Source of the DNA: a virus
Direction: 5' to 3' (one strand)
DNA length: 33,205 nucleotides
IMG/VR virus record: IMGVR_UViG_3300023242_000352
Span: 1 to 33,205 of that record
Positions 2,484 through 18,960 of this stretch are shown in pieces (positions within the stretch are counted from its first letter, which is position 1; the number at the start of each line of letters is the position of its first letter). The position numbers and the translations under genes are program-made. The notes beneath the pieces were generated by a model. It worked only from the letters and a program-made list of their open reading frames with translations. It ran no database searches and was not told the origin of the DNA.

Positions 2484-2512
2484 ATGGTATCTGTTATGTG
2501 CTAACAGGTCAA
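2484..2512 (-). promoter_or_regulatory. Leftward repeat-family promoter P1 with palindromic spacer
   Basis: Minus strand: TTGACC (-35, 2512-2507), 17-bp spacer, TACCAT (-10, 2489-2484; 4 of 6). The spacer contains TGTTAGCACA, shared with the promoters at 13362 and 18933. Here CTGTTA-GCACA-TAACAG (2507-2491) is a perfect 6-bp inverted repeat, as expected for a repressor operator. It starts at the end of the annealase gene and faces the two small genes to its left. Confidence 0.65.
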
Positions 2513-2515
2513 TAG

Positions 2516-3316
2516 TTAATTACACTCATATTCTAAAAAACCTTTGAGTATTGTATTTAGCTGGCGTTTCTCAAACTTATGCTCTTTCAGGTTATTGTTT
2601 ACAGCTACTTGCTCATCATTGGTTAATCGATTGTAAGCGGCTTTAATTCTAGGCGCTACAGCATCCTCGTCTTCGTCAGCATTGATCTGATTGATAAAGT
2701 ACGTTGTGGCTCGGCTTACTTTGTCTAGGTCTAATGGTTCGTTTGATATAGTCTCAATTGGCTCAACTATTACGTCATCAATAACTTCTGTTGACTTCAT
2801 TAAACCCCATTTGTAGCGAGTTGCCACACCATCGCTGGCAGCTAGAAAACTTATCTTGCCATCTTCAAATTCTGAGTACCAAACCCATTCTTTTAATTTT
2901 AATTCCCAAGTAGGCATTACTTTATTATTGTCAACCTTAAATTCTTTTGGGTTTAATTTAATTTGAATAACTGGGTATTCGTACAACTCGCGACCAATAC
3001 CCCAGTTAAAGCAAGATCGTTTAAACGAATCACTAGCCAAGCCCTTCTGAGCCTCTGCGTTGCTCTCTGTGCCTGTATCCTCTTTACCTACCCATTGGTT
3101 ACTTTCTTCGTTATAAATCGACACAGTACAGTTTTTATTGTCCCTAGTGTGCTTTCTTTCCCAATTAAGCGGCCCACAAACATCATCAAGCCGTTGCATA
3201 TCACATCTGGCGTTTTTATAAGCCAGTATAGTTGCGTAACCACCCTTGTTAATTGACTGGATGCGAAAATCAATCTGGTCAACAGTCAAAGGCTCTGCTA
3301 GTTTTAATAAGTCCAT
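2516..3316 (-). CDS. Rad52/Sak-type single-strand annealing protein
   Basis: 266 residues. The N-terminal half shows the Rad52/Rad22 phage family pattern: IDFRIQSINKGGYATILAYKNARCDMQRLDDVCGP-type opening with ARxxMxRLDxVxGPxNW (about 36-52), then TESNAEAQKGLASDSFKRSCFNWGIGRELYE (about 82-112). Family members anneal complementary ssDNA for phage recombination, usually with SSB, which is encoded here at 9374. The C-terminal third (about 175-266) is a variable linker and a helical tail. The start has a strong site (AGGAGGAAATATA-ATG) and overlaps the upstream stop (TAATG). It is the last gene of the leftward overlapping operon. Confidence 0.85.
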   Translation of the reverse strand: MDLLKLAEPLTVDQIDFRIQSINKGGYATILAYKNARCDMQRLDDVCGPLNWERKHTRDNKNCTVSIYNEESNQWVGKEDTGTESNAEAQKGLASDSFKRSCFNWGIGRELYEYPVIQIKLNPKEFKVDNNKVMPTWELKLKEWVWYSEFEDGKISFLAASDGVATRYKWGLMKSTEVIDDVIVEPIETISNEPLDLDKVSRATTYFINQINADEDEDAVAPRIKAAYNRLTNDEQVAVNNNLKEHKFEKRQLNTILKGFLEYECN

Positions 3317-3414
3317 TATATTTCCTCCTGTTCGGCTTGCTCGTCTTCGCTTAACTGAGCATAGTCAGCTTCGTCCGTTCCATCATCAAGTACGTGTTGA
3401 CTCATTTTACTCAT
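3316..3414 (-). CDS. Very small acidic protein (32 aa)
   Basis: ATG overlaps the stop of the upstream gene (ATGA) and its TAA overlaps the ATG of the annealase gene (TAATG). The product starts MSKMSQHVLDDGTDEADY and ends in a Glu/Gln-rich tail that encodes the AGGAGG used by the next gene. It may be a real peptide or a coupling ORF for the annealase. No family recognised. Confidence 0.55.
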   Translation of the reverse strand: MSKMSQHVLDDGTDEADYAQLSEDEQAEQEEI

Positions 3415-3539
3415 ATCAAAATATCCTCGTTAGTTTTAAGTACTGCAATTAATAACAGCGCAACACCAATTAAATTTATACCGATGTGGCTGAAACATAA
3501 TGTTAGCACAAGACCAAATAGCAATGCTAGCTTAATCAT
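3411..3539 (-). CDS. Small membrane protein (42 aa)
   Basis: Start chosen at the second of two adjacent ATGs because GGAG lies seven bases upstream. The body is almost wholly hydrophobic (LALLFGLVLTLCFSHIG, then LIGVALLLIAVL), enough for one or two inner-membrane spans, ending KTNEDILI. It overlaps genes on both sides. Function unknown. Confidence 0.6.
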   Translation of the reverse strand: MIKLALLFGLVLTLCFSHIGINLIGVALLLIAVLKTNEDILI

Positions 3540-3669
3540 CATCTTTCTCCAATAGTTCAGCTTTTGCATTATTTGCGTCTGTAACTTCCTGCCAGGCTTT
3601 TAGTGTAGCTACATTGCTAGGATAGCCAGCCTTAATCAAGCGCTGAACTCTGATATCAAATTCACTCAT
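3532..3669 (-). CDS. Hypothetical small protein (45 aa)
   Basis: Starts MSEFDIRVQRLIKAGYPSN, with ATG overlapping the upstream stop (ATGA) and GGTGAG just before it. The C-terminus is charged and helical (WQEVTDANNAKAELLEKDDD). It lies in a chain of overlapping leftward genes. No family recognised. Confidence 0.6.
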   Translation of the reverse strand: MSEFDIRVQRLIKAGYPSNVATLKAWQEVTDANNAKAELLEKDDD

Positions 3670-3938
3670 AGCTCACCCTTTTCTTCTGCTGTTTGCGCCC
3701 TGCAAGCGTCCCAATGGTTATGAGTGCATATATATTCGCCCTTGTCTGACATTGCTTTAAATTTTTCATAGGCTACAAATTCCGCGTTATCCATATCCCA
3801 GCAAAGCACAACCTGACCAACTCTAGGCACAAACTTAGGCGGGAAGGCTTCGTCCATAATGCTTTTAACATTGCTAATCAACCATCCAGCTTTTACTAAT
3901 CTTGACGCTAAATCTTCTCTCGTAATTAAATCAGTCAT
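3666..3938 (-). CDS. Hypothetical phage protein (90 aa)
   Basis: Start chosen at MTDLITREDLASRLVKAG, preceded by GGGAGAGTAATA; the longer reading from 3965 has no such site. The N-terminal half is helical. The middle is beta-like with a VGQVVLCWDMDNAEFVAYEKF stretch, followed by CTHNHWDAC, a Cys/His cluster that could bind metal. No family recognised. Confidence 0.65.
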   Translation of the reverse strand: MTDLITREDLASRLVKAGWLISNVKSIMDEAFPPKFVPRVGQVVLCWDMDNAEFVAYEKFKAMSDKGEYICTHNHWDACRAQTAEEKGEL

Positions 3939-4068
3939 TATTACTCTCCCATTGATTAACTTCATATTGTTCTTTGCGTTCTTCGTCAGTCAGCTCGCCT
4001 TCTTCTGGCTCGTCTTCATCATCCCATTTTTCAGGGTATGCTAATTTCCATTCGTCGTAGGCAGTCAT
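3931..4068 (-). CDS. Very acidic small protein (45 aa)
   Basis: ATG follows the upstream stop directly (TAAATG), with GAGG eight bases before. The product begins MTAYDEWKLAYPEKWDDEDE and is dominated by Asp/Glu. Its last bases overlap the next start by eight bases. Small acidic phage proteins often mimic DNA or inhibit host factors, but nothing specific can be claimed. Confidence 0.65.
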   Translation of the reverse strand: MTAYDEWKLAYPEKWDDEDEPEEGELTDEERKEQYEVNQWESNND

Positions 4069-4314
4069 TTATTCAGCCTCGTCTATTGCATCACGTAAAG
4101 CAAATCGCGCCTTACCAATGCTTGATTCACTTAAATCATCTATTATATTAACGCTACTTCCGTTATGTCCCACAGGAACCATTAAAGCAATTAGCTCAAT
4201 CAAATCTTCATGGTTAAAATCGTATACTGCTTCAGCATGTATGTTCTCACCAAAGACAATATCTATCCGTGGAAGTGGTGGTGCGCCAAGTGGTCTTATA
4301 GTGTATTCATTCAT
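4069..4314 (-). CDS. First gene of leftward operon, hypothetical (81 aa)
   Basis: Starts MNEYTIRPLGAPPLPRIDIV, with GAGGAAATAGAA as ribosome site. The product is mildly acidic; the middle is helical and hydrophobic (DLIELIALMVPVG), the end is RFALRDAIDEAE. It is first behind the divergent control region and heads the chain leading to the annealase. No family recognised. Confidence 0.65.
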   Translation of the reverse strand: MNEYTIRPLGAPPLPRIDIVFGENIHAEAVYDFNHEDLIELIALMVPVGHNGSSVNIIDDLSESSIGKARFALRDAIDEAE

Positions 4315-4435
4315 TTCTATTTCCTCGTTTGATGTTTGGTTAGTATGCGCTCTATTTATCTGGATGTAAACTATTTATTTCGCTATTCTGTAAAATATAA
4401 CTTGAATTAATTTGAGGATGCTGTAAATTAGCACA
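4315..4435. promoter_or_regulatory. Divergent early control region
   Basis: Separates the leftward operon (ATG at 4314) from the rightward operon (ATG at 4436). Minus-strand candidate: TTTACA, 17 bp, CATACT. Plus-strand candidate: TAAAAT or TATAAC near 4391-4400 with a poor -35. TTAGCACA (4428-4435), the core of the dispersed promoter motif, touches the start codon of the HTH gene. GAGG at 4414-4417 is too far (18 bases) to be a normal site for that start and sits directly before a start-stop mini-ORF (ATG CTG TAA). Confidence 0.55.
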
Positions 4436-4609
4436 ATGACAAGAAAAGAAAAGGCGGTGTACCTCATACAACACACACAATTATCAGTGAAGCAAATAGC
4501 AGAAGCGACAGGGCTTACGCAAAGCTGGTTATATCAACTAAAGAATAACGAATATAAATCGAATGATAAAATCGATGTTCTTTATAATTATTTAAGGAGG
4601 AGGAAATGA
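4436..4609 (+). CDS. Small HTH DNA-binding regulator, Cro-like (57 aa)
   Basis: The product has a canonical helix-turn-helix: LSVKQIAEATGLTQSWLYQL (residues about 16-35), followed by a basic tail YNYLRRRK. The size and layout match Cro/XRE-type phage repressors: first gene of the rightward early operon, behind a divergent promoter region. The start lacks a good ribosome site, but TTAGCACA abuts the ATG, so autoregulation and tuned translation are plausible. Its last codons hold AGGAGGAGG, which serves the next gene (ATGA overlap). Confidence 0.7.
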   Translation: MTRKEKAVYLIQHTQLSVKQIAEATGLTQSWLYQLKNNEYKSNDKIDVLYNYLRRRK

Positions 4610-5193
4610 GCAAAACATGCGTATTATGCAATATTAAGCCTGTTGTAAATCCCCATTGGAATGCGACAAAATGCGAAAATTGTAGAAATCTACGGACAGT
4701 TAAGTCATGTTATGTTTGCGGTATTGACATAACAAGCACAAACAAACATAAATATTGTACGGATTGCAAAGAGAAATTAAGGTATAAGCCTAATTACTGT
4801 ATTGATTGTGGAATATGTATATCTAGATCAAGAGCAAGTAGTAGCGCTAAAAGGTGTCTACCTTGTGTTGAATGCGATCTTAAATATAAAGCGTCTGGAA
4901 ATCGCGCTAGAGGCTGTCATAGTATTGTTGCAATAGCTGTTAGATATGGAATATTACCGAAGCTAGACGGGGTTATACAATGCGTAGACTGTGGAGGTGT
5001 AGCATCGCAGTATGAGCATAGGGATTACATGAAGCCACTAGACGTTGATCCGGTTTGTCGTAAATGTAATGCAGAAAGAGGATCGGCTATAAATTGCAAT
5101 AACCTGAATTTATTACCACAACAATTTGACGGTATTACGGGCGCAGCATTACGCTTAAATATCAGATTAGAATATCCAGAGGATTTGAAATGA
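4606..5193 (+). CDS. Cys-rich zinc protein with HNH-like C-terminal domain
   Basis: 195 residues with at least six CxxC pairs. The N-terminal two thirds are successive zinc-ribbon knuckles (CVLCNIKP, CENC, CYVCG, CTDC, CIDCG, CLPCVEC). The C-terminal part (about 125-170) reads CVDCGGVASQYEHRDY-x-KPLDVDPVCRKCNAERG. That matches the phage HNH-type zinc fold in which two CxxC pairs bracket an EHRDY/PLDV segment. It may be a homing-type nuclease or a non-catalytic zinc-binding protein; the usual second catalytic His is not obvious. It follows the HTH gene by an ATGA overlap and has a very strong ribosome site. Confidence 0.65.
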   Translation: MSKTCVLCNIKPVVNPHWNATKCENCRNLRTVKSCYVCGIDITSTNKHKYCTDCKEKLRYKPNYCIDCGICISRSRASSSAKRCLPCVECDLKYKASGNRARGCHSIVAIAVRYGILPKLDGVIQCVDCGGVASQYEHRDYMKPLDVDPVCRKCNAERGSAINCNNLNLLPQQFDGITGAALRLNIRLEYPEDLK

Positions 5194-5351
5194 AAAGCAT
5201 AGAGGTTAACAGTATATTAATTATAATTGGAGTTATAATTGGAACTATAATTATGCCAGCAATGCTAGATCCAACACCAGATTTAAAAATAGGAATTAGC
5301 ATGGTAGCAGGCTCTTTTCTTACTGCCATAGCTTTGATAGTTTGGGATTAA
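5190..5351 (+). CDS. Small two-span membrane protein (53 aa)
   Basis: ATG overlaps the upstream stop (ATGA), with GAGGATTTGAA as ribosome site. Two hydrophobic segments (about 8-24, ILIIIGVIIGTIIMP; about 36-52, GISMVAGSFLTAIALIV) are split by a short DPTPD loop. Function unknown. The first segment is encoded by near-repeats of TATAATTGGA. Confidence 0.65.
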   Translation: MKSIEVNSILIIIGVIIGTIIMPAMLDPTPDLKIGISMVAGSFLTAIALIVWD

Positions 5352-5375
5352 CACAACATTACCACAGGTGTCAGA

Positions 5376-5663
5376 ATGAAACAAACAAGAAAGGAAATGA
5401 TTGCCGTTTTAGAGGCAGCGCAAGAAGGAAAAACGATTCAAGGAAAGCGTCATATAGCTGCTAACGCTGGCGAATTTTACACTTATGACAATGATCACAG
5501 GCCAATGTGGAATTTTGATGCGATTGAGTACAGAGTCAAACCAGAGCCTAGAGAATATTGGATAAGAAAAGATCAGGCTCAATTTGAAAGCTCAACAGCT
5601 TTTAGCAATAAATTAATGGGCTTTGATAGAAGGGACTTTATTAAAGTAACCGAGCAGCTTTAG
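5376..5663 (+). CDS. Conserved phage early protein with RVKPEPREYW motif
   Basis: 95 residues. It matches a widespread early-phage family by its N-terminal KEMIAVLEAAQEGKTIQ, a WNFDAIEYRVKPEPREYWI centre (about 46-63) and a short C-terminal part. The family is found next to phage replication and regulation genes and has no established function. Ribosome site AGGTGTCAG-A-ATG. A terminator-like hairpin follows. Confidence 0.75.
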   Translation: MKQTRKEMIAVLEAAQEGKTIQGKRHIAANAGEFYTYDNDHRPMWNFDAIEYRVKPEPREYWIRKDQAQFESSTAFSNKLMGFDRRDFIKVTEQL

Positions 5664-5669
5664 CAGTAC

Positions 5670-5699
5670 CCACGTTAGCACCATCCTCAACTAACGTGG
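5670..5699 (+). other. 9-bp inverted repeat containing GTTAGCAC
   Basis: CCACGTTAG, 12-base loop, CTAACGTGG: a perfect 9-bp stem just downstream of the gene ending at 5663. No T-run follows. The left arm and loop contain GTTAGCAC, close to the dispersed operator-like motif TGTTAGCACA. It could be an RNA hairpin or a protein-binding site. Confidence 0.45.
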
Positions 5700-5705
5700 T
5701 CTTGT

Positions 5706-5734
5706 GTCAGGTCGTAGTGGCCTGGCGCTCTTTT
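5706..5734 (+). terminator. Probable intrinsic terminator in early operon
   Basis: GTCAGG-TCGTAGTGG-CCTGGC forms a six-pair stem (one G-U) followed by GCTCTTTT. It lies in the gap between the genes ending at 5663 and starting at 5754, downstream of the 5670-5699 hairpin. It would separate the first early transcript from the replication genes unless antitermination occurs. Confidence 0.6.
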
Positions 5735-5753
5735 AATTAAACTGAGATAGACG

Positions 5754-5918
5754 ATGGATAATTTAACTGTAAAATCAGCACAAGTATTATGTGAAGCGCT
5801 AGAAATATATAGCGATTATTTTGACGAAGATAACGAAGAATGCGTGATGCTAAAAGAAAATAACCTAGACTTATTTAATGCATACGTTGAATTATTTGAG
5901 CTGGCTAATAAAAGCTAG
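5754..5918 (+). CDS. Hypothetical acidic protein (54 aa)
   Basis: Starts MDNLTVKSAQVLCEALEIYS after GAGATAGACG. It is helical and strongly acidic (DYFDEDNEEC). No family recognised. It is isolated between a terminator and the promoter at 5935. Confidence 0.6.
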   Translation: MDNLTVKSAQVLCEALEIYSDYFDEDNEECVMLKENNLDLFNAYVELFELANKS

Positions 5919-5934
5919 ACAATAAAAAACTCAC

Positions 5935-5964
5935 TTGACCGAGGAATCGGATTTCTAGTATAAT
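5935..5964 (+). promoter_or_regulatory. Promoter of the replication genes
   Basis: TTGACC (5935-5940), 18-bp spacer, TATAAT (5959-5964). The spacer lacks TGTTAGCACA but carries its own small dyad CCGA-GGAA-TCGG (5939-5950) at the -35 edge, a possible operator. Transcription should begin near 5971 and read into the structured leader and the O/helicase genes. Confidence 0.75.
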
Positions 5965-5970
5965 ACTCAA

Positions 5971-6045
5971 AGCGGCTTACTTGGACTTCGAACCCAAGGA
6001 TAGCTTACCCCCTTCAGAGTTGCCGCTATCTATTTTCCAGAAGGG
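5971..6045 (+). promoter_or_regulatory. Structured 5' leader with competing stems
   Basis: The predicted transcript start coincides with AGCGGC (5971-5976), which pairs with GCCGCT (6022-6027) and encloses CTTGG (5980-5984)/CCAAG (5994-5998). GATAGC (5999-6004) can instead pair with GCTATC (6025-6030), followed by TATTTT, which is terminator-like. CCCTTC (6010-6015) can pair with GAAGGG (6040-6045). The outer and GATAGC stems share bases 6025-6027 and exclude each other, as in attenuators. An alternative view is that this is coding from a TTG at 5981. Confidence 0.4.
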
Positions 6046-6064
6046 TCTGCATGAAGGTTTAACA

Positions 6065-6283
6065 ATGAAAAAACAAATTAATTACAAGCCGGGAACCGAT
6101 AAGGTTTTATCACCGCGTATTGTTAATTACTCCGTACGATGGGGTAAATTAGTATTAATAACAGCAAATATATCGACCGATACATATCATTTAAAAGCCT
6201 ATAGAAAGGTTTTGCATTCCTTATGGGAAGGAGGGTATAGCCATAAAGACGCAGCTCATTTGATTATAACGGGTGATGCATAA
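6065..6283 (+). CDS. Hypothetical basic protein (72 aa) before the initiator gene
   Basis: Start chosen at MKKQINYKPGTDKVLSPRI, with GAAGG eight bases upstream. An in-frame TTG at 5981 would add 28 residues (DFEPKDSLPPSELPLS...) but has no ribosome site and lies in the structured leader. The protein is small and basic, with mixed strands and helices. The stop overlaps the next start (TAATG). No family recognised; it may regulate or assist replication because of its position. Confidence 0.65.
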   Translation: MKKQINYKPGTDKVLSPRIVNYSVRWGKLVLITANISTDTYHLKAYRKVLHSLWEGGYSHKDAAHLIITGDA

Positions 6284-6918
6284 TGGAAATCAATAATTGG
6301 GATAAGTGGCAAACCTTTAGAAAAGACAGGGGTACGCCACCGTGGATTAAAGTCTACAGGAACTTATTATCAAATGAACAATGGGTAGATTTAACTGATT
6401 CAGAGAAAGGCCAGTTAATTTCTATTTGGATTCTTGCGGCTGATAAAAATGGACAAATATCAGACAATCCAAAAATGATTCAACGAATGGCAATGCTTGA
6501 GTCACCACCAAACATCAATAAATTCATAGAGTTAGGTTTCCTGTCAACCACCTGTCAACCACCTGTCAACCAAGCGGTAACCGATTGTCCGCAACTTGAC
6601 GCACCAGAGGAGAGTAGAGCAGAGACAGAGCAGAGTAAAATAGATAGCCGGTTTGATGATTTTTGGATAATGTACGACAAGAATGTAAACAAGCCAAAAT
6701 GCAAAGCTAAGTTTGAACGATTGAGTAAAAAATCAGTAGACACTATATTTAACACTCTCCCAAAATACATCAACTCAACGCCTGACAAACAATTTAGAAA
6801 AGCGCCATTAGTTTATTTGAATAATGATTGTTGGAATGATGAGATAGTAATACCAACGAATAAAAGTGGTTTTAACAATCAGCCATCAACATCAAGTTAC
6901 CGGGATTTTCCATTATGA
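6283..6918 (+). CDS. Phage replication initiator, lambda-O/replisome-organizer type
   Basis: 211 residues. The N-terminal domain (about 1-80) has the winged-helix opening common to phage replication organisers: WQTFRKDRGTPPWIKVYRNLL, then LTDSEKGQLISIWILAADKNGQIS. A low-complexity linker (about 85-118) contains the iteron repeats. The C-terminal domain (about 120-190) reads FDDFWIMYDKNVNKPKCKAKFERL, as in DnaT/O-like helicase-recruiting regions. By family, the N-terminus binds origin iterons and the C-terminus recruits the helicase encoded next (ATGA overlap). Confidence 0.8.
   Translation: MEINNWDKWQTFRKDRGTPPWIKVYRNLLSNEQWVDLTDSEKGQLISIWILAADKNGQISDNPKMIQRMAMLESPPNINKFIELGFLSTTCQPPVNQAVTDCPQLDAPEESRAETEQSKIDSRFDDFWIMYDKNVNKPKCKAKFERLSKKSVDTIFNTLPKYINSTPDKQFRKAPLVYLNNDCWNDEIVIPTNKSGFNNQPSTSSYRDFPL
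6540..6635 (+). repeat. Candidate replication origin: 11-bp iterons inside the O-like gene
   Basis: CCTGTCAACCA is repeated three times without a mismatch and without gaps (6540-6550, 6551-6561, 6562-6572). The 11-bp period puts each copy on the same helix face. Because 11 is not a multiple of three, the repeat is not selected as a peptide repeat. A purine-rich tract follows (about 6606-6640), with AGAGCAGAG at 6616 and 6627, again 11 bp apart, then AT-rich DNA (about 6650-6672). Iterons, then a tract easily melted, inside the initiator gene, is the lambda ori layout. Confidence 0.7.
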
Positions 6919-8213
6919 ATAAACAATGGCAAGCACCTGAAGCGGAAAAGGTATTTATTGGCTCAATTCTAACTAGGCCATCGAGATTACTTGAAGTCAC
7001 AGCTACGAAAGCTAGTTTTATGATTGAAGCACACGCGACTGTATTTGATGTGATTATGGATATGAACCAATCTAATAACCTGATTGATTTAATATCAGTA
7101 GCGGATCGCTTGACAGAGTTAAATGCTAGTTCAAAAAATAACGTTTATGCTTACCATGCTTCGTTTACTGGTGGTTGGTTACATCAGTTATCTAATTGGA
7201 TGGAGGCGGCTGTTGTTGATTCTTTTTTCTATTCATCGCAAGAAATTATAATACGCGAGTATCGCAAGCGAGAAATAACAAAGATCAGTTATAACTTGAG
7301 CGAAGATTATGATGCTGATGTCGCCATACAAGAATTAATGAATTTAGAAGTGGTTGAGAAAAAGCACACCCACACGATTACTGAGGCTTTAACAGTTGCT
7401 ATTGATAAAGTACAAGAGTTGGCACAGCATGGTGGTGTTGTTGGTTTGACAACTGGTTTAAAGGCTTTGGATGACGCTATTGGTGGATTCCAATCACCAG
7501 ATTTATATATTATTGGAGCAAGGCCAGCAATGGGTAAAACAGCAGTTGCTATGAACATGATGCTATCTAATAATTGCGCGGCTGGATTCTTTTCGACTGA
7601 GCAACCAATGGAACAAATAGGAATTAGGACATTATCAATACAAAGCGGTGTTTCTGCTAATCGAGTAAGAAAGGCTGACTTCCAAAATGGCGATATAGAA
7701 AGGCTTATATCTACACTAGGACAACTTAAAGGTCGCAATGTATTAATCCATGACAAGGCTAATATAACGATTGGTGAGCTAATGCGTGAAGCTAGGCAAA
7801 TGAAGTTTACTCACGATATACAAGCGGTCTATGTTGATTACATTCAGCGAATCAAAAGCCCGAAGGCAGAAAACAGACGGTTAGAAGTTGCTGACGTTGT
7901 GACGGGCCTTAAAACACTTGCCAGAGAACTAAATATTCCAGTTATAGCATTAGCACAGGTATCGCGAGAAGTTACTAAGCGGCCTGACAAGCGTCCTCAC
8001 ATGGGCGATCTTTTAGAGTCTGGTGTCATAGAGCAAGAAGCTGACGTTGTGATGATGCTTTACCGTGATGAGGTCTACAACGAAGACACAAATGAAAAAG
8101 GTATTATTGAAATATTAATCGATAAGAACCGACACGGGCCAACTGGCAAGCTTAAATTTGCATGGATTGGCGATCAAATGAAAATAGCGGATCTGCAAGG
8201 GGGGTCGTTTTAA
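6915..8213 (+). CDS. Replicative DNA helicase, DnaB family
   Basis: 432 residues, near the usual DnaB length. The N-terminal helical domain (about 7-120) is followed by a RecA-type ATPase: Walker A GARPAMGKTA (201-210), STEQ (227-230), Walker B VYVDYIQ (305-311), ALAQVSR (345-351) and the SGVIEQEADVVMMLYRDE signature (369-386). It unwinds the phage fork as a hexamer and is probably loaded by the preceding initiator (ATGA overlap). No intein or disruption is seen. Confidence 0.95.
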   Translation: MNKQWQAPEAEKVFIGSILTRPSRLLEVTATKASFMIEAHATVFDVIMDMNQSNNLIDLISVADRLTELNASSKNNVYAYHASFTGGWLHQLSNWMEAAVVDSFFYSSQEIIIREYRKREITKISYNLSEDYDADVAIQELMNLEVVEKKHTHTITEALTVAIDKVQELAQHGGVVGLTTGLKALDDAIGGFQSPDLYIIGARPAMGKTAVAMNMMLSNNCAAGFFSTEQPMEQIGIRTLSIQSGVSANRVRKADFQNGDIERLISTLGQLKGRNVLIHDKANITIGELMREARQMKFTHDIQAVYVDYIQRIKSPKAENRRLEVADVVTGLKTLARELNIPVIALAQVSREVTKRPDKRPHMGDLLESGVIEQEADVVMMLYRDEVYNEDTNEKGIIEILIDKNRHGPTGKLKFAWIGDQMKIADLQGGSF

Positions 8214-8362
8214 TGTTAAAGCATATTACAGAATATCTACCAAAGCACTTAGCCAAGGGTTATCGAGAATACTTAGAAAGGCAAATAGCCAATCAAACAA
8301 GCACGATGACAGACGAAGAAATACAGGATAATTTAAAGCAACTGAAAGAGGCTGTGAAATAA
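8213..8362 (+). CDS. Small helical protein after helicase (49 aa)
   Basis: Start MLKHITEYLPKHLAKGYREY overlaps the helicase stop (TAATG). A longer same-frame reading from 8162 would lie mostly inside the helicase gene and is rejected. The product is helical and amphipathic. Function unknown; the repeat-family promoter P2 follows. Confidence 0.65.
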   Translation: MLKHITEYLPKHLAKGYREYLERQIANQTSTMTDEEIQDNLKQLKEAVK

Positions 8363-8375
8363 AGCAAATTAACTA

Positions 8376-8403
8376 TTGACCTGTTACCACAAATCTATAT
8401 AAT
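8376..8403 (+). promoter_or_regulatory. Repeat-family promoter P2
   Basis: TTGACC (8376-8381), 16-bp spacer, TATAAT (8398-8403). The spacer is TGTTACCACAAATCTA, one base different from the shared TGTTAGCACA. The downstream sequence AGCAACCGAGAAATAAAATG resembles the leaders after P3 and P4. It should drive the second half of the early operon (SSB, NinG, phosphoesterase, Q-like). Confidence 0.85.
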
Positions 8404-8441
8404 GGCATAAAGCAACCGAGAAATAAAATGACTGAGGCACT

Positions 8442-8618
8442 ATGAAAAAAGCAAAGAACGCTGGCAACCAACACAATAAGCTTCCGCTTGATAAAGTAAT
8501 CGGGGATTATTGGCGCATACGATGCACAGCAGCAGATAAATTAAAGTGGAAAGCTAAAGCCAGATCGGCTGAATTAAGCGACTCAGACTGGACGCGATTA
8601 AAACTAAACAAGGACTAG
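8442..8618 (+). CDS. Hypothetical basic protein (58 aa), first gene after P2
   Basis: Starts MKKAKNAGNQHNKLPLDKV, with GAGG five bases upstream. A five-codon ORF (8428-8445, MTEAL) overlaps its ATG by ATGA and may couple translation. The product is rich in Lys, Arg and Trp (DYWRIRCTAADKLKWKAKARS), consistent with nucleic-acid binding but without a recognised family. Confidence 0.65.
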   Translation: MKKAKNAGNQHNKLPLDKVIGDYWRIRCTAADKLKWKAKARSAELSDSDWTRLKLNKD

Positions 8619-11896: not shown

Positions 11897-12999
11897 CACC
11901 TAAACAACAAGAAGTATTTGACCTAAAGCAACAAGGAATGAGTGTTGCTGAAATAGCGGTTAAGCTAAACATTAACCCGTCATCAGTCACACGAAGGTGG
12001 CAGGGCGCTATAAACCGATCAGTTACACAAAAAATGTCGCCAGGGTTTGAAATAGACCGCAAGACCGAGGGCCGATGGTATGAAGACCCAGAAACAGGAG
12101 AACGTCGAGTCGAGTATTTAAAGTCTAAGCGCACTAAGGAAACAACTACTGGTATGGCTGATGCTTTCAGGGCTTCTATATCCGACATTAAGCCATTAAA
12201 GAATATTAAAATACCAAAAACCAGCATGAAAGATAGCATGGTTGTCTACCCAATGGGCGACCCACACATAGGCCTATACGCATACCATAAAGAAGTTGGT
12301 GAAGATTTCGACTGTGATATAGCAGAGCGTGATTTATTAGCAGCTGTTGATTATTTATTCAGTGTTGCGCCTCCTACAGACGAGGCTTTAGTCGTAAACT
12401 TAGGTGATTTTTTCCACAGTGATAGTGGGCGCAACGCAACAACCAAAGGAACCCCTGTAGACGTCGACACTCGTTGGAGCAGAGTTTTATTAATAGGAAT
12501 AAAGGTTCAGATTAGAATGATAGAACTGGCATTGGGCAACCACAAGCGAGTAACTGCAATTATAGCACCTGGAAACCATGACGCAGAATCAAGTATATTA
12601 TTAACTATAGCCTTGCAGCTTTATTTTGAAAACAATAAACGAGTTACGATTCAAGAACCAAATATGTTTCATTTCTACGAGTTCGGCGCTAACTTGATAG
12701 GTGTTTGTCATGGTCACACTGTCAAAAAAGAAAACTTACCACAGTTAATGGCTGAAGATATGCCAGAAGCATGGGGAAGGACCAAACATAGATATTGGTA
12801 CACTGGACACATTCATCACAGAACACTACTAGAGGTTGGCTCGACTATCGTAGAATCATTCCGAACGCTGGCAGGCAAAGACGCATGGCATCACGGTCAA
12901 GGCTACCGAGCAGGCCGAGATATGAACGCTATTGTATTACATAAGAAGTACGGTGAGACAGACCGACATAGGTGTGACATACTGAGAGCAAGGGCCTAA
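11890..12999 (+). CDS. HTH-metallophosphoesterase fusion protein
   Basis: 369 residues. The N-terminus (about 1-45) is a helix-turn-helix of the LuxR/sigma-like kind: LTPKQQEVFDLKQQGMSVAE then IAVKLNINPSSVTRRWQGA. The rest is a calcineurin-like phosphoesterase with all metal motifs: GDPH (123-126), GDFFH (172-176), GNHD (228-231), CHGHT (273-277) and GHIHH (306-310). By family it is a two-metal hydrolase, probably on nucleic acid or nucleotides. The HTH suggests DNA recruitment. Its substrate is unknown. It sits just before the Q-like gene. Confidence 0.85.
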   Translation: MLTPKQQEVFDLKQQGMSVAEIAVKLNINPSSVTRRWQGAINRSVTQKMSPGFEIDRKTEGRWYEDPETGERRVEYLKSKRTKETTTGMADAFRASISDIKPLKNIKIPKTSMKDSMVVYPMGDPHIGLYAYHKEVGEDFDCDIAERDLLAAVDYLFSVAPPTDEALVVNLGDFFHSDSGRNATTKGTPVDVDTRWSRVLLIGIKVQIRMIELALGNHKRVTAIIAPGNHDAESSILLTIALQLYFENNKRVTIQEPNMFHFYEFGANLIGVCHGHTVKKENLPQLMAEDMPEAWGRTKHRYWYTGHIHHRTLLEVGSTIVESFRTLAGKDAWHHGQGYRAGRDMNAIVLHKKYGETDRHRCDILRARA

Positions 13000-13000
13000 T

Positions 13001-13361: not shown

Positions 13362-13389
13362 TTGACTTGTTAGCACAGTACTATATAAT
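13362..13389 (+). promoter_or_regulatory. Repeat-family promoter P3
   Basis: TTGACT (13362-13367), 16-bp spacer, TATAAT (13384-13389). The spacer is TGTTAGCACAGTACTA, with the shared decamer at its start. The downstream leader CAACTACCGAGGAAAAG leads to the ATG at 13426. With the terminator at 13624 it forms a complete one-gene unit. Confidence 0.85.
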
Positions 13390-13425
13390 GAACTTATTGA
13401 AGCAACAACTACCGAGGAAAAGAAA

Positions 13426-13602
13426 ATGCAAATAATTACTAATACATACAAGCACGCAGCAGACGGTTTTAAAGTTACGGTTACAACTTGTAATAAAAAA
13501 ATTGCTACAACTAAAAATGTAGAAACAGACGAAGTAATTAAATTTAATCGGTCTAAGTTTGAATGGATGATTAACAAAGGTGTGTTTGCTTTAGTTGATT
13601 GA
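13426..13602 (+). CDS. Small moron-like gene product (58 aa)
   Basis: Starts MQIITNTYKHAADGFKVTVT, with GAGGAAAAGAAA as ribosome site. It looks like a compact alpha/beta protein with a Trp/Phe-rich end (SKFEWMINKGVFALVD). Own promoter and own terminator between the early and late regions is the classic layout of a moron (an added accessory gene). No family recognised. Confidence 0.7.
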   Translation: MQIITNTYKHAADGFKVTVTTCNKKIATTKNVETDEVIKFNRSKFEWMINKGVFALVD

Positions 13603-13623
13603 TAGTGACATTAACCCAACCCT

Positions 13624-13645
13624 AGCCCATTAATTGGGGCTTTAT
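13624..13645 (+). terminator. Intrinsic terminator of the P3 unit
   Basis: AGCCC (13624-13628), eight-base loop, GGGCT (13637-13641), followed by TTTATT. It is short but placed exactly after the small P3-driven gene and before the candidate late promoter. Confidence 0.65.
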
Positions 13646-13663
13646 TAACTAATTTTAAACTAT

Positions 13664-13692
13664 TTGCAATATTTCTAAAATTATGGTAGTGT
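13664..13692 (+). promoter_or_regulatory. Candidate late promoter (pR'-like)
   Basis: TTGCAA (13664-13669), 17-bp spacer, TAGTGT (13687-13692; only 3 of 6). TATGGT at 13682 is an alternative -10 without a good -35. An inverted repeat GTGTA/TACAC (13689-13693 and 13712-13716) with an inner CCA/TGG lies at the start of the transcript. The position between the Q-like gene and the leader terminator is the main support. Confidence 0.35.
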
Positions 13693-13746
13693 AGCCATTA
13701 CGGTGGATTTTTACACACTAAACAAACTTACTCGGCAAGACCCCAG

Positions 13747-13770
13747 CCCACTCCATACGTGGGTTTTTTT
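13747..13770 (+). terminator. Strong U-tract terminator ahead of lysis genes (tR'-like)
   Basis: CCCAC (13747-13751), TCCATAC loop, GTGGG (13759-13763), then seven T. A strong terminator upstream of all late genes and right behind the Q-like gene makes sense only if antitermination lets late transcription through, as in lambda. Confidence 0.8.
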
Positions 13771-13879
13771 ATGCTTGCTACTATTTCAGCCCCACGCCGC
13801 CAACAAACTCAACTAATTGCTAACACAGCAATAAACTAATGAACGCGGATATGTGGGGCGAATCTATTTAGGTAACACA

Positions 13880-14236: not shown

Positions 14237-14484
14237 TTAGAGCATTATTTTTATTATTATTCAGTACAAGTCTAGGTGCGGCTACATTTCTTAAAGCAGC
14301 GCCGCCTATTTATTTCTTTGATATGCCCGATGAAACTTTTATCTGTAATGCAAGCTCTGTTCCACTAACTTGTATCGGCTATCATAAAGAAACTGACGTT
14401 AAAATTAAGTATTACTGTATTGCAACAACACCAGAACTAGGTTATTTAAAAGAGTGCGCGGTTGTTAATGGTGTTTTGATATGA
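14233..14484 (+). CDS. Exported small protein of the lysis cluster (83 aa)
   Basis: ATGA overlap with the peptidase gene. A clear signal peptide, MIRALFLLLFSTSLGAATF, is followed by a short mature part with four cysteines (CNASSVPLTC; YYCIATTPELGYLKEC) that could form two disulfides in the periplasm. It could have a spanin-related or inhibitor role, but there is no lipobox, so it is not a classical Rz1. Confidence 0.65.
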   Translation: MIRALFLLLFSTSLGAATFLKAAPPIYFFDMPDETFICNASSVPLTCIGYHKETDVKIKYYCIATTPELGYLKECAVVNGVLI

Positions 14485-14996
14485 GCTTTAATTGGAAAAG
14501 CATAGTCAGCACAGTGGCTCCCGTTTTAGGTGTCGCAGTGGGCGGTCCATTCGGTGCAATAGCCAGTAAAGCAATTCAATCGGCATTAGGTGTTGAAGAC
14601 GAAGAAGCCGCCATTGCTGAAATTAGAGATAACCCAGACGCTTTGTTAAAGCTGAAAGCGGCTGATGGTGATTTCAAATTAAAAATTAAAGAGCTAGGCA
14701 TTAAAGAAAGCCAGCTTCACGCAAAAGATCGAGATTCGGCAAGAGACTTGGCAAAGTCTAAAGGCATTTACTTTCAAGCGTTTCTGACATCGGTTTTTAT
14801 CGGTGGTTACTTCGGTTTATTTTGGTTGTTCTTTGCCAGCAGCGCGCCCGAAACAGTGTTAAACGATTGGCAGCGAGGCCAGGTCGGTGTATTGATCGGC
14901 GTTTTAACGGGCGCTATCCCACAGTTGTTAGCTTTCTGGTTTGGGTCATCCAAAAGTTCAAGTGATAAAACTCACTTGATGAATAAAGGCAAATGA
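14481..14996 (+). CDS. Holin, three-TM GTA-type family
   Basis: 171 residues. A Gly-rich hydrophobic N-terminus (VAPVLGVAVGGPFGAIASKA) and a charged helix with the KDRDSARD motif (about 82-89) precede two membrane spans (about 98-118 and 134-153). The order and the DxxSARD motif are typical of the holin family first noted in gene-transfer agents. It would permeabilise the inner membrane to release the peptidase. ATGA overlaps at both ends. Confidence 0.8.
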   Translation: MSFNWKSIVSTVAPVLGVAVGGPFGAIASKAIQSALGVEDEEAAIAEIRDNPDALLKLKAADGDFKLKIKELGIKESQLHAKDRDSARDLAKSKGIYFQAFLTSVFIGGYFGLFWLFFASSAPETVLNDWQRGQVGVLIGVLTGAIPQLLAFWFGSSKSSSDKTHLMNKGK

Positions 14997-15283
14997 CGGT
15001 GGCGAGGTATGAAGGCGACGAGAAGCGCGCAACCAAATTACACCTAGACCCGACGATAAGCTGGGGTCATATTTTAACGACTGTTGCACTGATCGGAACG
15101 TTACTAACAACGCTGTCAGGCGTTAATAATAGACTCACACTGAACGAGTCAAACACAAAACATAACCGCGAATTAATTGACCGCCAAGAACGCCAATTAA
15201 ACAAAGACCGCGCTGAATTAAATCAAACAATTACAAAGATGAGCGAGAAGATTGACCGCTTAATTTTACGGCTTAGTAAGTAA
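14993..15283 (+). CDS. Membrane-anchored coiled-coil protein, possible spanin
   Basis: 96 residues: a basic N-terminus, one membrane span (about 25-43, HILTTVALIGTLLTTLSGV), then a long charged helix (NESNTKHNRELIDRQERQL and on). This topology fits an inner-membrane spanin (Rz-like) or an XhlA-like lysis protein. Its place after the holin supports a lysis role, but no partner lipoprotein is evident. Confidence 0.6.
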   Translation: MTVARYEGDEKRATKLHLDPTISWGHILTTVALIGTLLTTLSGVNNRLTLNESNTKHNRELIDRQERQLNKDRAELNQTITKMSEKIDRLILRLSK

Positions 15284-15292
15284 GGGTAATAA

Positions 15293-15370
15293 ATGAAATT
15301 CAAGCAGCTAGACACTATATCAAGTCAACTTAACGACATAACTAAGCTTTTGCTTGCTGATAAAAAATGA
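15293..15370 (+). CDS. Tiny coupled ORF (25 aa)
   Basis: AAGGGTAATAA-ATG is a good site. The product is MKFKQLDTISSQLNDITKLL and five more residues, one helix. Its stop overlaps the next start (ATGA), so it may serve mainly for translational coupling. Confidence 0.5.
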   Translation: MKFKQLDTISSQLNDITKLLLADKK

Positions 15371-15945
15371 CTGATACTGTTGTATATTGTAATTTAGATA
15401 TTGGAGCTAACGCACCAACACCGTGGAGTTACAATGAATTTACATCTACCAGTGTTCAGCAATTATCGTCAGATTTAAAAGATGAAAGCAATGCCGGCAC
15501 AGGTTTTACGTTAGATATAACAGCGGCTTTTACTAACGCTACTGGTGCAACAGGAGCAGCAACATCAGGCGCGGGAAGTTGGCCTGAAGAAATCTTTGAT
15601 TACTATTTTTACATGGGCGCAACCACTGCAACATTACAAGTTGGTGGGCTGACTAATGGTGATACTTACGTTATAGAATTGGCAGGCCATCGGGGTAATT
15701 CAGGGCGTAATACAACTTATGACATAGACGGCGGCACTTCACAAACATATACAGCAAGCTCAGGCAGCACTCCTAACGCTCCGTTGTCTTTTTCAGGCAC
15801 GGTATCAGGGACAACATTAGATATAAATGCTTCTCGTGTTTCTGTTTTTGGTTATATTAACGGGTTTAAAATGACAATTACTAGTGGTGGCGGTGGCGGA
15901 ATATCAATACCAGTAATCATGCATCATAGAAGGCAAATGCAATGA
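15367..15945 (+). CDS. Beta-rich structural or decoration protein
   Basis: 192 residues, rich in Thr, Ser, Gly and Ala, with alternating hydrophobics suggesting a beta-sandwich: TLQVGGLTNGDTYVIELAGH, TTYDIDGGTSQTYTASSG, FSGTVSGTTLDINASR. A Gly5 linker (about 172-178) leads to a short basic hydrophobic tail ISIPVIMHHRRQMQ, a type of ending seen on phage fibre and decoration proteins. Possibly a carbohydrate-binding or capsid-surface domain. Confidence 0.6.
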   Translation: MTDTVVYCNLDIGANAPTPWSYNEFTSTSVQQLSSDLKDESNAGTGFTLDITAAFTNATGATGAATSGAGSWPEEIFDYYFYMGATTATLQVGGLTNGDTYVIELAGHRGNSGRNTTYDIDGGTSQTYTASSGSTPNAPLSFSGTVSGTTLDINASRVSVFGYINGFKMTITSGGGGGISIPVIMHHRRQMQ

Positions 15946-16367
15946 GTTATACAGTTAAAATACTAAGCAAAGAAAAAAGAAACGACACATGGAAGGCAGT
16001 GCTTGAATATTCTGATGGCGCTAAAACGTTTAAAAAGGGCTACAGTTTAGAGCCTATGACCGAAGAAAGAGCAAAGGGTATGCTAAGGGCTAAAGTTGCG
16101 GAGCTAGACAGCTTTGATTTAGATGTTTTTCCGTTTCCGCTTAATGAAGTTTTAGACTTGACAGCCAAAGAAGTGGTTAAGCCTACGCCTAAAGTGCTTG
16201 CAGATAGCGAAATAGCGCAGAACGAATGGCTAAATAATTTTTATAAAATGAAAAAGTACGAGCAATTAATATCTATGGGTGTAATGACTTCAGGTGCTAA
16301 CGAAGTAACTGAGTTAAAGGCCATGCTTAAAAATGATTATTTGCCTGATTATTTGGAGTTTATATAA
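15942..16367 (+). CDS. Hypothetical virion-associated protein (141 aa)
   Basis: ATGA overlap upstream; TAATG-type overlap downstream. The N-terminus is beta (TVKILSKEKRNDTWKAVLEY), the C-terminus helical (EWLNNFYKMKKYEQLISMG). It is placed within a run of structural genes. No family recognised; it may be a chaperone or adaptor for the neighbouring fibre-like proteins. Confidence 0.6.
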   Translation: MSYTVKILSKEKRNDTWKAVLEYSDGAKTFKKGYSLEPMTEERAKGMLRAKVAELDSFDLDVFPFPLNEVLDLTAKEVVKPTPKVLADSEIAQNEWLNNFYKMKKYEQLISMGVMTSGANEVTELKAMLKNDYLPDYLEFI

Positions 16368-17332
16368 TGCTAGTTCTAAGGCAGTCAACATCTATCGATA
16401 TACGCATTGGGCCTGCTATGGACGCGGGTAACGGCGTAGACCCTGAAACTGGCGTAGGTTTAGTTGCTGCGGATCAAGCGGAAGTATTGAAAGCAAACGG
16501 AGCCGCTACAGTAACTATGGGCGGTGCTTTTTCTGCGGTTAGTGGTTGTGACGGTTGGTATGATTACACTGTGGCTACAGGCGATGTAGATACTATTGGC
16601 GAAGTAATATTTGTAGTCCAAGACAGTACCCTATGCCTTCCTATGTTTGTAAAAGCTATGGTAATGGAACCGGTAGTATATGACGCAATCTACGCAGATG
16701 GAGCCACAGGTATAGCGTCTGGTATTGCTTTAGCGTCAGCACTAGCTACGGTTGATAACGAAATTTACACTTTACAAGGCAACGTGACTGATATTCTTGC
16801 AGACACTAACGAGCTGCAAAGCGACGATTTGCCAGGACTTATAGCAACATTAGACGCAGTAGTTGACACAGTAAAAGCAGAAACAGTGCTTATACTAGAA
16901 GATACCGCAAATATTCAAGCTAACTATGCCACGGCATCAGCATTAGCAACAGTCGATACGGTGGTTGATGGTATACAAACAGACCTTTCCAACGGTACGG
17001 ACGGACTAGGTGCAATAAAATCAGCTTGTGCTACGGCCACAGGATTTGCAACAGAAGCAAAGCAAGATGTTATTGATGGGATTGTCGATCAATTAAATTT
17101 AGGCATTATTTACGGAGTAGCCGAAACTGGCACATTATCAACTACTCAAGCAACAACCAATATTACGGGCTATACAGCAGATCAACTAGTTGATGCTGTT
17201 ATAATTGTGACAAGTGGTGACGCTGAAGGAGAAAGGAAAGAAATAACGGCCTCGGCAGTAACAGACGGCTTGTTAACTTTTGGAGCAATGACAGAAGCTA
17301 TGGCAAATGGCGATACTTTCAAAATAGTCTAA
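16367..17332 (+). CDS. Fibre/adaptor-type structural protein (321 aa)
   Basis: The N-terminal domain (about 1-115) follows a layout common in environmental phages: LRQSTSIDIRIGPAMDAGNG, LKANGAATVTMGGAF, DGWYDYTVATGDVDTIGEV, PMFVKAMVMEPVVYDAIYADG. It looks like a beta-sandwich that attaches to the virion. A helical spacer with repeated ATVD and DTV elements (about 120-240) follows, then a C-terminal beta domain ending GDTFKIV. Probably a head or neck fibre. Confidence 0.65.
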   Translation: MLVLRQSTSIDIRIGPAMDAGNGVDPETGVGLVAADQAEVLKANGAATVTMGGAFSAVSGCDGWYDYTVATGDVDTIGEVIFVVQDSTLCLPMFVKAMVMEPVVYDAIYADGATGIASGIALASALATVDNEIYTLQGNVTDILADTNELQSDDLPGLIATLDAVVDTVKAETVLILEDTANIQANYATASALATVDTVVDGIQTDLSNGTDGLGAIKSACATATGFATEAKQDVIDGIVDQLNLGIIYGVAETGTLSTTQATTNITGYTADQLVDAVIIVTSGDAEGERKEITASAVTDGLLTFGAMTEAMANGDTFKIV

Positions 17333-18108
17333 TGAGTGCAATTACCCGATTAGGATTAGGAGGTAGCAGTAGAAGAATATACAAAGCTTTTAGCGGTAGC
17401 GTTTTAATAATGACTATTTCTGAAGGAATAGCGGCAGCAGATATTAGCTCTGGCAAATTATCGGCATTGTTAAGCGTATCTGAATCAGCAGGCGCATCAG
17501 ATGTTGATGCAGGGCAATACGCGACAAGTCAAGAAGTCATAGAAGCCGTAGAAGCTAACGATCTATCAAGCGCATTATTTAACGCAATATTAACACAGAA
17601 TATTAATGCTATTGCATCAGACGCGGTAAGCATAAAAGCAAACTTTGGTGTAACATTAAACGAATCTTTGTCGGGTGTTGACAATGACACCGGTAAGGTT
17701 TCATTTATTGCAACACTATCAGAATCAATTGTAGGTGTTGACGCTGCAAGCATTGTATCAAGCGCTATAACAGCGACCATTGGCGAAGTAATAGCATCAG
17801 CAGATGGTGTTAGTATGAAAGCTAATTTTATTATGACGTTAGGCGAATCAGTAAATGTTAGCGATATACAGTCTAGTCAAGCGTCCTTAATATCGACTAT
17901 AAACGAAGCTATAACGTCAAATGATGCCTTTAATGCAGTATCAGTGTATACTTTAACAATTGGCGAAACTTTAACCGCTTTAGATGCGCTTAGTAATGCG
18001 TTAGGAAGTATAAAAGGCTTTATCACAGCAACGATAACTATCAACCCTTTAATTAATATAGAAACGAGCATCAACCCGATTATCACAGGAACAATAACGG
18101 TAACTTAA
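17332..18108 (+). CDS. Repeat-built virion protein (258 aa)
   Basis: After a short basic head it has about ten imperfect repeats of 20-21 residues with the core TLxESxxxxDxxS: ISEGIAAADISSG, VSESAGASDVDAG, LNESLSGVDNDTG, LSESIVGVDAAS, LGESVNVSDIQSS, INEAITSNDAFN, IGETLTALDALS. It ends in ITATITINPLINIETSINPI, another short repeat. The pattern suggests a beta-solenoid fibre. It lies in the structural cluster between lysis and terminase. Confidence 0.65.
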   Translation: MSAITRLGLGGSSRRIYKAFSGSVLIMTISEGIAAADISSGKLSALLSVSESAGASDVDAGQYATSQEVIEAVEANDLSSALFNAILTQNINAIASDAVSIKANFGVTLNESLSGVDNDTGKVSFIATLSESIVGVDAASIVSSAITATIGEVIASADGVSMKANFIMTLGESVNVSDIQSSQASLISTINEAITSNDAFNAVSVYTLTIGETLTALDALSNALGSIKGFITATITINPLINIETSINPIITGTITVT

Positions 18109-18110
18109 AT

Positions 18111-18599
18111 ATGAATACTGAATTAGCAAAAGCAGCAATGCACTGGACAATGGTTGCCAAAGATAAATTAGGCAATGTAAAATGGAAGGATGAAGGCAAA
18201 AATCTTATTGTCAATACTGGACTGGATTATTTGCTTGAAAATGATGTAGTAGCTGCAACGCTCTATATCGGATTAACTGACGGAACGCCAACAATCGCAG
18301 CCGGTGACACAATGGCCTCGCATTCAGGCTGGACTGAAGTAACGGCTTATGACGAAGGCTCACGACCCGAGTGGGGCCAAGGCGCAGCTAGTGGCGGTGT
18401 AACGACTAATGGAACAGCAGTAACGTTTACGGCTAGTGGTTCCACAACAGTAGGCGGTGGCTTTCTAACAACTAACGCAACTAAAGGCGGTACTACCGGT
18501 ACTTTGTTTAGTGTTAAAGCAGCAACAGAAGGCAATCGTTCTTTAGTAGACGATGATACACTTGATGTTACTATTTCGTTGACTGTTACCAGCTCATAA
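18111..18599 (+). CDS. Conserved phage structural protein (162 aa)
   Basis: It matches a recurrent phage virion family: LIVNTGLDYLL (about 31-41), LYIGLTDGTPTIAAGDTMAS (about 50-69), SGWTEVTAYDEGSRPEWG, then a beta C-terminus with FTASGSTTVGGGFL and GGTTGTLFSVKAA. Often found near capsid or fibre genes; exact role unknown, probably decoration or tail surface. Confidence 0.7.
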   Translation: MNTELAKAAMHWTMVAKDKLGNVKWKDEGKNLIVNTGLDYLLENDVVAATLYIGLTDGTPTIAAGDTMASHSGWTEVTAYDEGSRPEWGQGAASGGVTTNGTAVTFTASGSTTVGGGFLTTNATKGGTTGTLFSVKAATEGNRSLVDDDTLDVTISLTVTSS

Positions 18600-18916
18600 T
18601 GGATGTATTTATTGACAACACGGGCTTACTTCGTGTAACGAACGCAAAAATAACGGCGCTCGATGGGACAAAGACCGCTTTAAGCCTAGCTGGTGAAATG
18701 ACAATAGTTGATAAATCAGGCGTGACGGTAACGGGTCAGACATTCCCAACGGCATTAACATTAAACGCGGCTGGTGACTATTCAGCTATACTAGAATCAG
18801 ACCTTGCTCTTATAGCTCGTAGAACGTACACAGCTCAATTAACTTTTGGAACAGCACCCAATACAAGGGGTGATTTTAACGTCCCTTTCACAGCGGTAGA
18901 AAGATCAGGAACATAA
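18599..18916 (+). CDS. Small beta-rich structural protein (105 aa)
   Basis: The stop of the previous gene overlaps its ATG (TAATG). The product has an alternating pattern (LLRVTNAKITALDGTKTALS; GDYSAILESDLALIARRTYT; GDFNVPFTAVERSG) typical of a beta-sandwich accessory protein of phage heads or tails. It is last before promoter P4. Confidence 0.65.
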   Translation: MDVFIDNTGLLRVTNAKITALDGTKTALSLAGEMTIVDKSGVTVTGQTFPTALTLNAAGDYSAILESDLALIARRTYTAQLTFGTAPNTRGDFNVPFTAVERSGT

Positions 18917-18932
18917 ATAAATTCGATAGTTG

Positions 18933-18960
18933 TTGACCTGTTAGCACATATCTATATAAT
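18933..18960 (+). promoter_or_regulatory. Repeat-family promoter P4
   Basis: TTGACC (18933-18938), 16-bp spacer, TATAAT (18955-18960). The spacer TGTTAGCACATATCTA has the exact shared decamer. The leader AAAACAAACGAGGAAAATAAA before ATG 18997 matches the P3 leader. It would drive the small gene, the ParB-like and Mom-like genes and probably packaging genes. Confidence 0.87.

Follow-up and report, generated by a model that had tools for sequence, protein, structure and literature searches.

The window analysed here is a viral DNA stretch of 33,205 nucleotides (nt; IMG/VR record IMGVR_UViG_3300023242_000352, positions 1 to 33,205), and it contains four sites that probably belong together as a genuine family of promoter cassettes of the moron kind, with a putative operator in the promoter spacer. 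Three features of the family are directly visible: the copies of one core sequence, a likeness that reaches beyond this core, and the absence or exchange in relatives of the genes behind the copies.

We lean towards the following interpretation as a whole. The four sites would be homologous copies of one small regulatory cassette, composed of a strong promoter for the host sigma-70-type RNA polymerase and a conserved spacer element between -35 and -10, and every good copy would drive one short gene or two, much as moron cassettes do. A repressor covering the spacer element would keep the polymerase from binding; the likeliest repressor would be a ribbon-helix-helix-like protein of 58 amino acids (aa) made from the promoter at 8376, which would shut down both its own gene and the remaining copies. 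The copies would have spread by recombination, perhaps aided by the Erf annealing protein of the phage.

Promoter copies in the window

The window has four exact matches to the core TTGACNTGTTANCACA and no more, at 2512-2497 (minus strand) and from 8376, 13362 and 18933 (plus strand), as had been claimed in an earlier reading of the letters alone (the sequence-only reading), in which four sites shared TTGAC[CT] and a spacer opening with TGTTAGCACA. With up to one mismatch the sites are still four, against 0.02 expected in shuffled sequences, and none of 100 shuffles reached four. With up to three mismatches the number is again four, for a shuffle mean of 1.44 and four sites reached in 5 of 100 shuffles; this last count, taken alone, is not decisive. 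A separate scan of the window for the core gave four sites with no mismatch, none with one to three, and many with four. Among 83 sigma-70-like sites of the window (3,403 pairs), at least nine of the first ten spacer bases were common to six pairs, all six being pairs of these four copies. Chance likeness between strong promoters could draw on the shuffles that reached four sites at three mismatches; the expectation for the exact core, the extended likeness and the pairwise spacer test all oppose it, and the counts refute it, so that its probability is next to nil.

Each of the plus-strand copies has the form TTGAC[CT]-N16-TATAAT with CTA ahead of TATAAT, and each agrees with the sigma-70 consensus at 11 of 12 positions; one further site in the window does so (5935), with a spacer of 18 and without TGTTAGCACA. 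Copy 1 (8376-8403, plus) comprises the -35 element TTGACC (8376-8381), a spacer (8382-8397) opening with TGTTACCACA, and the -10 element TATAAT (8398-8403). Copy 2 (13362-13389, plus) has TTGACT, the spacer TGTTAGCACAGTACTA and TATAAT, and copy 3 (18933-18960, plus) has TTGACC, the spacer TGTTAGCACATATCTA and TATAAT. Copy 4 (2484-2512, minus) lies directly behind the stop codon of erf and has TTGACC, TGTTAGCACA and a weak -10 element, TACCAT, at a spacing of 17 (TACTAT in the relatives L070 and L091; relatives are cited by locus number). It is followed by no nearby ORF and fits the family poorly. Thus three of the four proposed promoters are good ones and the minus-strand copy is weak, and for such a set within 33 kb the phage-wide regulon that had been proposed is too strong a description.

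The CTGTTA/TAACAG dyad reported for the minus-strand copy is present (CTGTTAgcacaTAACAG, 2491-2507, minus), and outside the window it recurs in the two relatives in which that site was seen, L070 and L091; it is lacking in the three plus-strand copies and is not a feature of the family. A LexA-like reading of CTGT-N9-ACAG in this copy was rejected, as the spacing is nine and not the eight of the LexA consensus and the dyad is confined to this copy. Neither Rfam nor ARAGORN gave a match over the window at default thresholds, and no stem-loop common to the four units was found.

Likeness beyond the core

When the regions upstream of the genes at 13426 and 18997 were aligned by their start codons, 58 of 87 positions were identical, compared with a background mean of 26.4 (standard deviation 4.1; next best pair, 40) over 1,081 pairs from 47 window starts picked by the analyst from the open reading frame (ORF) list. 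In both of these copies, the distance to the ATG, counted from the start of the -35 element, is 64 nt. Judged by eye, the copies at 13362 and 18933 and that in L124 share a leader of the type ATTGAA.CAA followed by GAGGAAA or CAGGAAA, which in copy 2 (13390-13425, plus) consists of ATTGAA.CAA and the ribosome-binding region ACCGAGGAAA; copy 1 and its counterparts in L126 and L118 share a different leader. The 16-bp spacing attributed to all three plus-strand copies was confirmed, and the common leader was confirmed for 13362 and 18933 and not for 8376. The flank upstream of copy 1 (AAATAAAGCAAATTAACTA, 8357-8375, plus) is common to relatives and in part to the minus-strand copy, which has 20 exact bases in common with 8376. 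Since leaders and upstream flanks are alike as well, the extended likeness is the pattern of copies and not of four promoters converging on one operator.

A possible agent of the copying is encoded next to copy 4, i.e. an Erf/Rad52-type single-strand annealing recombinase (2516-3316, minus; PHROG 1097, E-value (E) 3.4e-25; PF04098, E 3.1e-5). Phage Rad52-like recombinases, including Erf of D3, are described as recombining diverged sequences and making mosaics, and efficient pairing by Red-beta is given there as 23-27 nt (PMC3945230). Two results count against a special role of the promoters in such exchange. The exact runs common to copies of the window are 10-20 nt, below the length for Red-beta. 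Furthermore, an enrichment of breakpoints at the promoters failed against the gene-border control: 3 of 37 breakpoint clusters fell in promoter zones, where 2.3 were expected under a null of gene borders (P 0.41, no excess) and 0.59 under a uniform null (P 0.02). The breakpoint list was drawn from 11 analyst-chosen loci (high-scoring segment pairs no shorter than 60 bases and no less than 80% identical, with contig ends excluded) and gave 38 clusters, one of them outside the tested range; its rows are not independent, as some loci overlap or share a contig or an allele group (L126/L077, L118/L193/L199, L085/L130), and the cluster at 19000 stems from a copy-to-copy match of L181 and not from shared gene order.

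Genes behind the promoters in relatives

Close relatives of the window are present in IMG/VR, several of them perhaps from Antarctic lakes, and the units at 18933 and 13362 behave in them as moron-type cassettes. Copy 3 is followed by an 80-aa gene (18997-19239, plus; no family), which ends 19239, with the next gene starting at 19246; the gene and its promoter are both absent from L131 and L181. In L131 only 41 nt separate the 105-aa gene from the ParB-like gene, compared with 329 nt in the window, where the gap holds the 18933 promoter and the 80-aa gene; of these flanking genes, the 105-aa gene is 96% identical to that of the window in DNA and the ParB-like gene is a 77%-identical allele. 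In L181, which covers more of the contig of L124, a homologue of the 105-aa gene (69%) is followed at once by a different ORF.

Copy 2 is followed by a gene that also encodes 58 aa (13426-13602, plus; no family) and is not the gene of the candidate repressor. This gene and the whole 13362 unit are absent from L181: likeness to the window stops at 12995 and resumes at 13683, the neighbouring DNA is replaced too, and between the equivalent positions lies a different gene, Phage_antitermQ (PF06530, E 1.3e-6). A weak terminator-like hairpin (13620-13639, plus; the scan total about equals that of shuffles) stands behind the copy-2 gene, the only one of the cassettes to have one.

Copy 1 recurs in three contig groups besides that of the window (L126/L077, L124/L127, and an L118-type with TGTAAT), with differing genes behind it. 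In the window, the promoter is followed by a mini-ORF, MTEAL (8428-8445, plus), and then by the gene for the 58-aa protein. In L126 the order is a 90-aa gene and then the 58-aa homologue; MTEAL equals the last five codons of this 90-aa gene and overlaps the next start codon. Most simply, the window has lost 255 bp in frame at an ATGA repeat relative to L126, the direction of change being our interpretation. L118 has a 91-aa gene that is diverged from the 90-aa gene yet has its ends, followed by the 58-aa homologue, and L124 has a 50-aa and a 69-aa gene, followed by the homologue (here 63 aa). L124 resembles the window as far as the last base of the -10 element and no further, and the leader behind it matches that of 18933 at 13 of 20 positions versus 3 of 20 for 8376.

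L118 is an otherwise different phage, whose likeness to the window is confined to patches no longer than 710 nt and which has no match to the helicase of the window. Its 633-aa gene presumably encodes DNA polymerase I, and upstream of its promoter lies a 61-aa fragment with weak methyltransferase matches (best E 0.02).

The cargo genes are mostly of unknown families. That the units are related, moron-like promoter cassettes is a conclusion that we hold with good confidence, and two expectations of the sequence-only reading are borne out here: spread by copying, in that leaders and flanks are alike and units are present, absent or joined to other genes in relatives, and the precedent of moron promoters, in that gene units are absent or exchanged among relatives. 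The window and its relatives offer a clean small case: a comparison of related contigs shows directly which genes stand behind a repeatedly used phage promoter, which are missing there and which have been swapped.

Comparison with known systems

The cassette family is new in sequence and known in kind (morons, mobile promoter cassettes). Morons are accessory genes with their own promoter in lambdoid and other temperate phages. Common to these and the present units are a small optional gene, its own sigma-70-type promoter, a position between phage genes, and absence from relatives; in contrast to morons, several of the present units share one promoter sequence including the spacer, and only one has a terminator-like hairpin. 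A moron would also be transcribed in the lysogen, independently of the lytic genes. For the present phage lysogeny is only a possibility: no integrase was found among 30 window proteins scanned with PHROGs, the sole repressor-like match there being a 57-aa helix-turn-helix (HTH) protein.

The promoter early stem-loop cassettes (PeSLs) of T4-like phages are described as early-type promoter units that occur repeatedly and are linked to the shuffling of genes (PMC4503421). Repeated promoter cassettes and gene shuffling between related phages are found here also; unlike in the description of PeSLs, there is no common stem-loop, the copies are three or four in a small tailed-phage genome, and the units show no more breakpoints than gene borders in general. 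The start-associated sequences (SAS/ESAS) of Cluster K mycobacteriophages are reported as an asymmetric repeat before a subset of genes, kept across relatives and located at the ribosome-binding site (PMC3203893); an asymmetric repeat ahead of some genes and kept in relatives is also seen here, but between -35 and -10. The stoperators of mycobacteriophages (PMC9283540), as described, are likewise scattered sites, open to a single phage repressor, but they are numerous and also end elongation, whereas here every good copy is itself a promoter.

The spacer element as a putative operator

The element has the consensus TGTTA[GC]CACA across the copies. In pairs of the plus-strand copies, 9-10 of the first ten spacer bases agree, compared with 17-23 of 43 flanking bases chosen by the analyst (minus-strand copy left out), and Fisher tests on the three pairs gave P values of 0.0008, 0.005 and 0.07. 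In these copies, the three spacer bases that follow the first ten vary. The first half of the spacer is thus kept beyond the flanks in two of three pairs, which suggests an operator and makes one common controller, as had been proposed, plausible. For the element as a protein-binding site, we regard the case as evenly balanced.

Two observations weigh against an operator read by the 58-aa protein. The symmetry of TGTTAGCACA amounts to TGT-N4-ACA at most, with no second half-site common to all copies, and the G/C change in the element does not track the two alleles of the 58-aa protein.

The copies might instead be frozen homology only, i.e. strong constitutive promoters copied together with small genes, in which the spacer is kept by recent descent or promoter quality and has no reader. 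The missing common dyad, the likeness that reaches into the upstream flank and leader, and the one pair of three that lacks a significant spacer excess (P 0.07) are in keeping with this. Against it stand the contrast between the ten spacer bases and flanks kept at about half or less, the variation of the next three spacer bases, and the unchanged core in L118. We take frozen homology for a serious alternative, if not a probable one.

Candidate regulators

The candidate for a common regulator under the operator interpretation is the 58-aa protein (8442-8618, plus), which has a weak NikA-like/ribbon-helix-helix match. The exact core precedes its homologue in all 10 loci found, 66 to 423 bases ahead of the start, these loci representing only four allele groups, including that of the window itself. 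A structure was predicted with AlphaFold2 and searched with Foldseek; of the eight Foldseek rows with a probability of at least 0.2, seven were AtaR, Rv0298 (two chains), NikA, VapB12, MazE-mt10 and CopG, none of them significant. We take these proteins to share the ribbon-helix-helix fold.

Several results argue against this assignment. Matches of the protein to Pfam PF21983 are all below the Pfam cut-off (E 0.002 in the window, 5.3e-5 in L126, 3.9e-5 in L124), and no match was found among PDB sequences or in named phages. The AlphaFold2 model has a mean predicted local distance difference test score (pLDDT) of 70.7, with helix in the position of the expected strand, and Foldseek gave no match at E<0.001, all E being at least 4.8. 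In addition, the L118 and L124/L181 contigs have the 58-aa homologue and one promoter copy each and no multi-gene set, so that the homologue there could regulate its own operon only, unless further copies lie outside the contigs. That the 58-aa protein is the one binding the spacer element is a tentative proposal, to which we would give somewhat less than even weight.

The controller named in the sequence-only reading was the 57-aa protein with weak HTH matches (4436-4609, plus). It matches PHROG 6223 (E 5.9e-5), with Pfam HTH/repressor matches below cut-off, and its gene sits at a divergent control region, inside a stretch of 95% identity to L070/L126. On the other hand, it has no BLASTP match (E up to 1e-4, ORFs of at least 35 aa) in the 32.5-kb, possibly incomplete L118 contig, which bears the unchanged core; the protein at the equivalent place in L118 does not align with it, and the control region of its own gene (4315-4435) contains no core site within four mismatches. 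The 57-aa protein was set aside because it has no homologue beside the unchanged core in L118, and a phage-wide regulon run by it is highly improbable. The 58-aa protein is plausibly the better candidate.

A further-reaching possibility is a plug-in regulon, in which operator and promoter would travel as one cassette, along with the gene of their own small ribbon-helix-helix repressor, among phages that otherwise differ. We consider this rather unlikely; if true, a gene landing behind a further copy would come at once under the same switch. With a specific candidate regulator and a ten-base element named, the idea that accessory genes join an existing switch by copying becomes testable.

Occurrence in other genomes

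Megablast of window bases 1-25000 against a collection of named phages gave no match, nor did a 111-base piece with copy 1 against named phages only, or an 87-base piece with copy 3 against plasmids only. In print, the letters of TGTTAGCACA occur in 27 papers, and the 20 titles listed are remote from phage promoters. The motif had been expected not to be frequent in host genomes and unrelated phages, which agrees with the searches. The full promoter pattern occurs in only four stretches of 84,980 species genomes, all of them in Clostridia and with 17-bp spacers, and a host-wide motif was rejected, the four stretches being of another build. In the viral collection, the core was found in at least 119 stretches (read by eye) and a longer pattern in 15, seven in the clade and eight outside; among the matches listed, those from outside the clade lack the other parts of the unit. 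Of the eight, L084 has a promoter-shaped site (6148-6175, TTGACGTGTTAGCACA-N6-TACAAT, 16-bp spacer, TTGACG, before an ATG). L084 is an unrelated viral contig, in which BLASTN detected nothing else in common with the window and TBLASTN no homologue of the 58-aa protein. This does not favour the 58-aa protein as the reader of the element, and the site in L084 may reflect chance or independent use.

Phage promoters can be tied to host regulators, and the spacer element might likewise be read by a host regulator, the phage borrowing a host switch. The promoter-shaped site in L084 fits this; the few Clostridia stretches, with a dyad of their own, do not, with the limit that the true host may be outside the collection and that a host operator need not share the promoter frame. 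We judge a borrowed host switch to be improbable.

The four stretches in Clostridia (L159-L162) are promoters from rumen or omasum with the sequence TTGAC[AG]TGTTA[AG]CACA[CT]GCTAA[CT]TATAAT, and they apparently carry an inverted-repeat operator of their own.

Neighbouring features

Behind the minus-strand copy lies a noncoding element (2321-2176, minus) that is 96.6% identical over 146 nt to L193 4412-4557, i.e. between the window and the otherwise different L118 phage. The minus-strand copy may read into this element, because the element begins about 160 nt behind it. The element has tRNA-like parts (a GTGGCTG/CAGCCAC stem; GTTCGATTC and TTTGGTAAAT twice each), and its core occurs in eight viral stretches that form two groups. 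Neither ARAGORN (default) nor Rfam detected anything at the element; a search of 1400-2600 by Rfam E-value gave isrF (0.018) and a hammerhead (3.4), far under the cut-offs and neither of them at the element. The fold z-score of 2480-2165 is -2.4.

Behind the 13362 cassette and before the endolysin gene, 13655-13772 contains a promoter-like box (by eye) and a terminator-like hairpin (13745-13765), and resembles a pR'/tR' late-promoter leader; it is partly overlapped by a block (13683-13873) that is 99.5% identical in L124/L181. Downstream of the 18933 cassette, just before the terminase genes, 19246-20631 encodes the ParB-like nuclease and a Mom-like DNA modification protein (PF25680, E 2e-46).

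Two features lie elsewhere in the window. Between two small genes, 5663-5740 holds noncoding inverted repeats (CCACGTTAG...CTAACGTGG, by eye) with a terminator-like hairpin at 5704-5728. At 1-760 there is a 51-bp tandem repeat (ten 300-nt registers, in 51-bp steps), which is probably coding sequence within a tail fibre gene.

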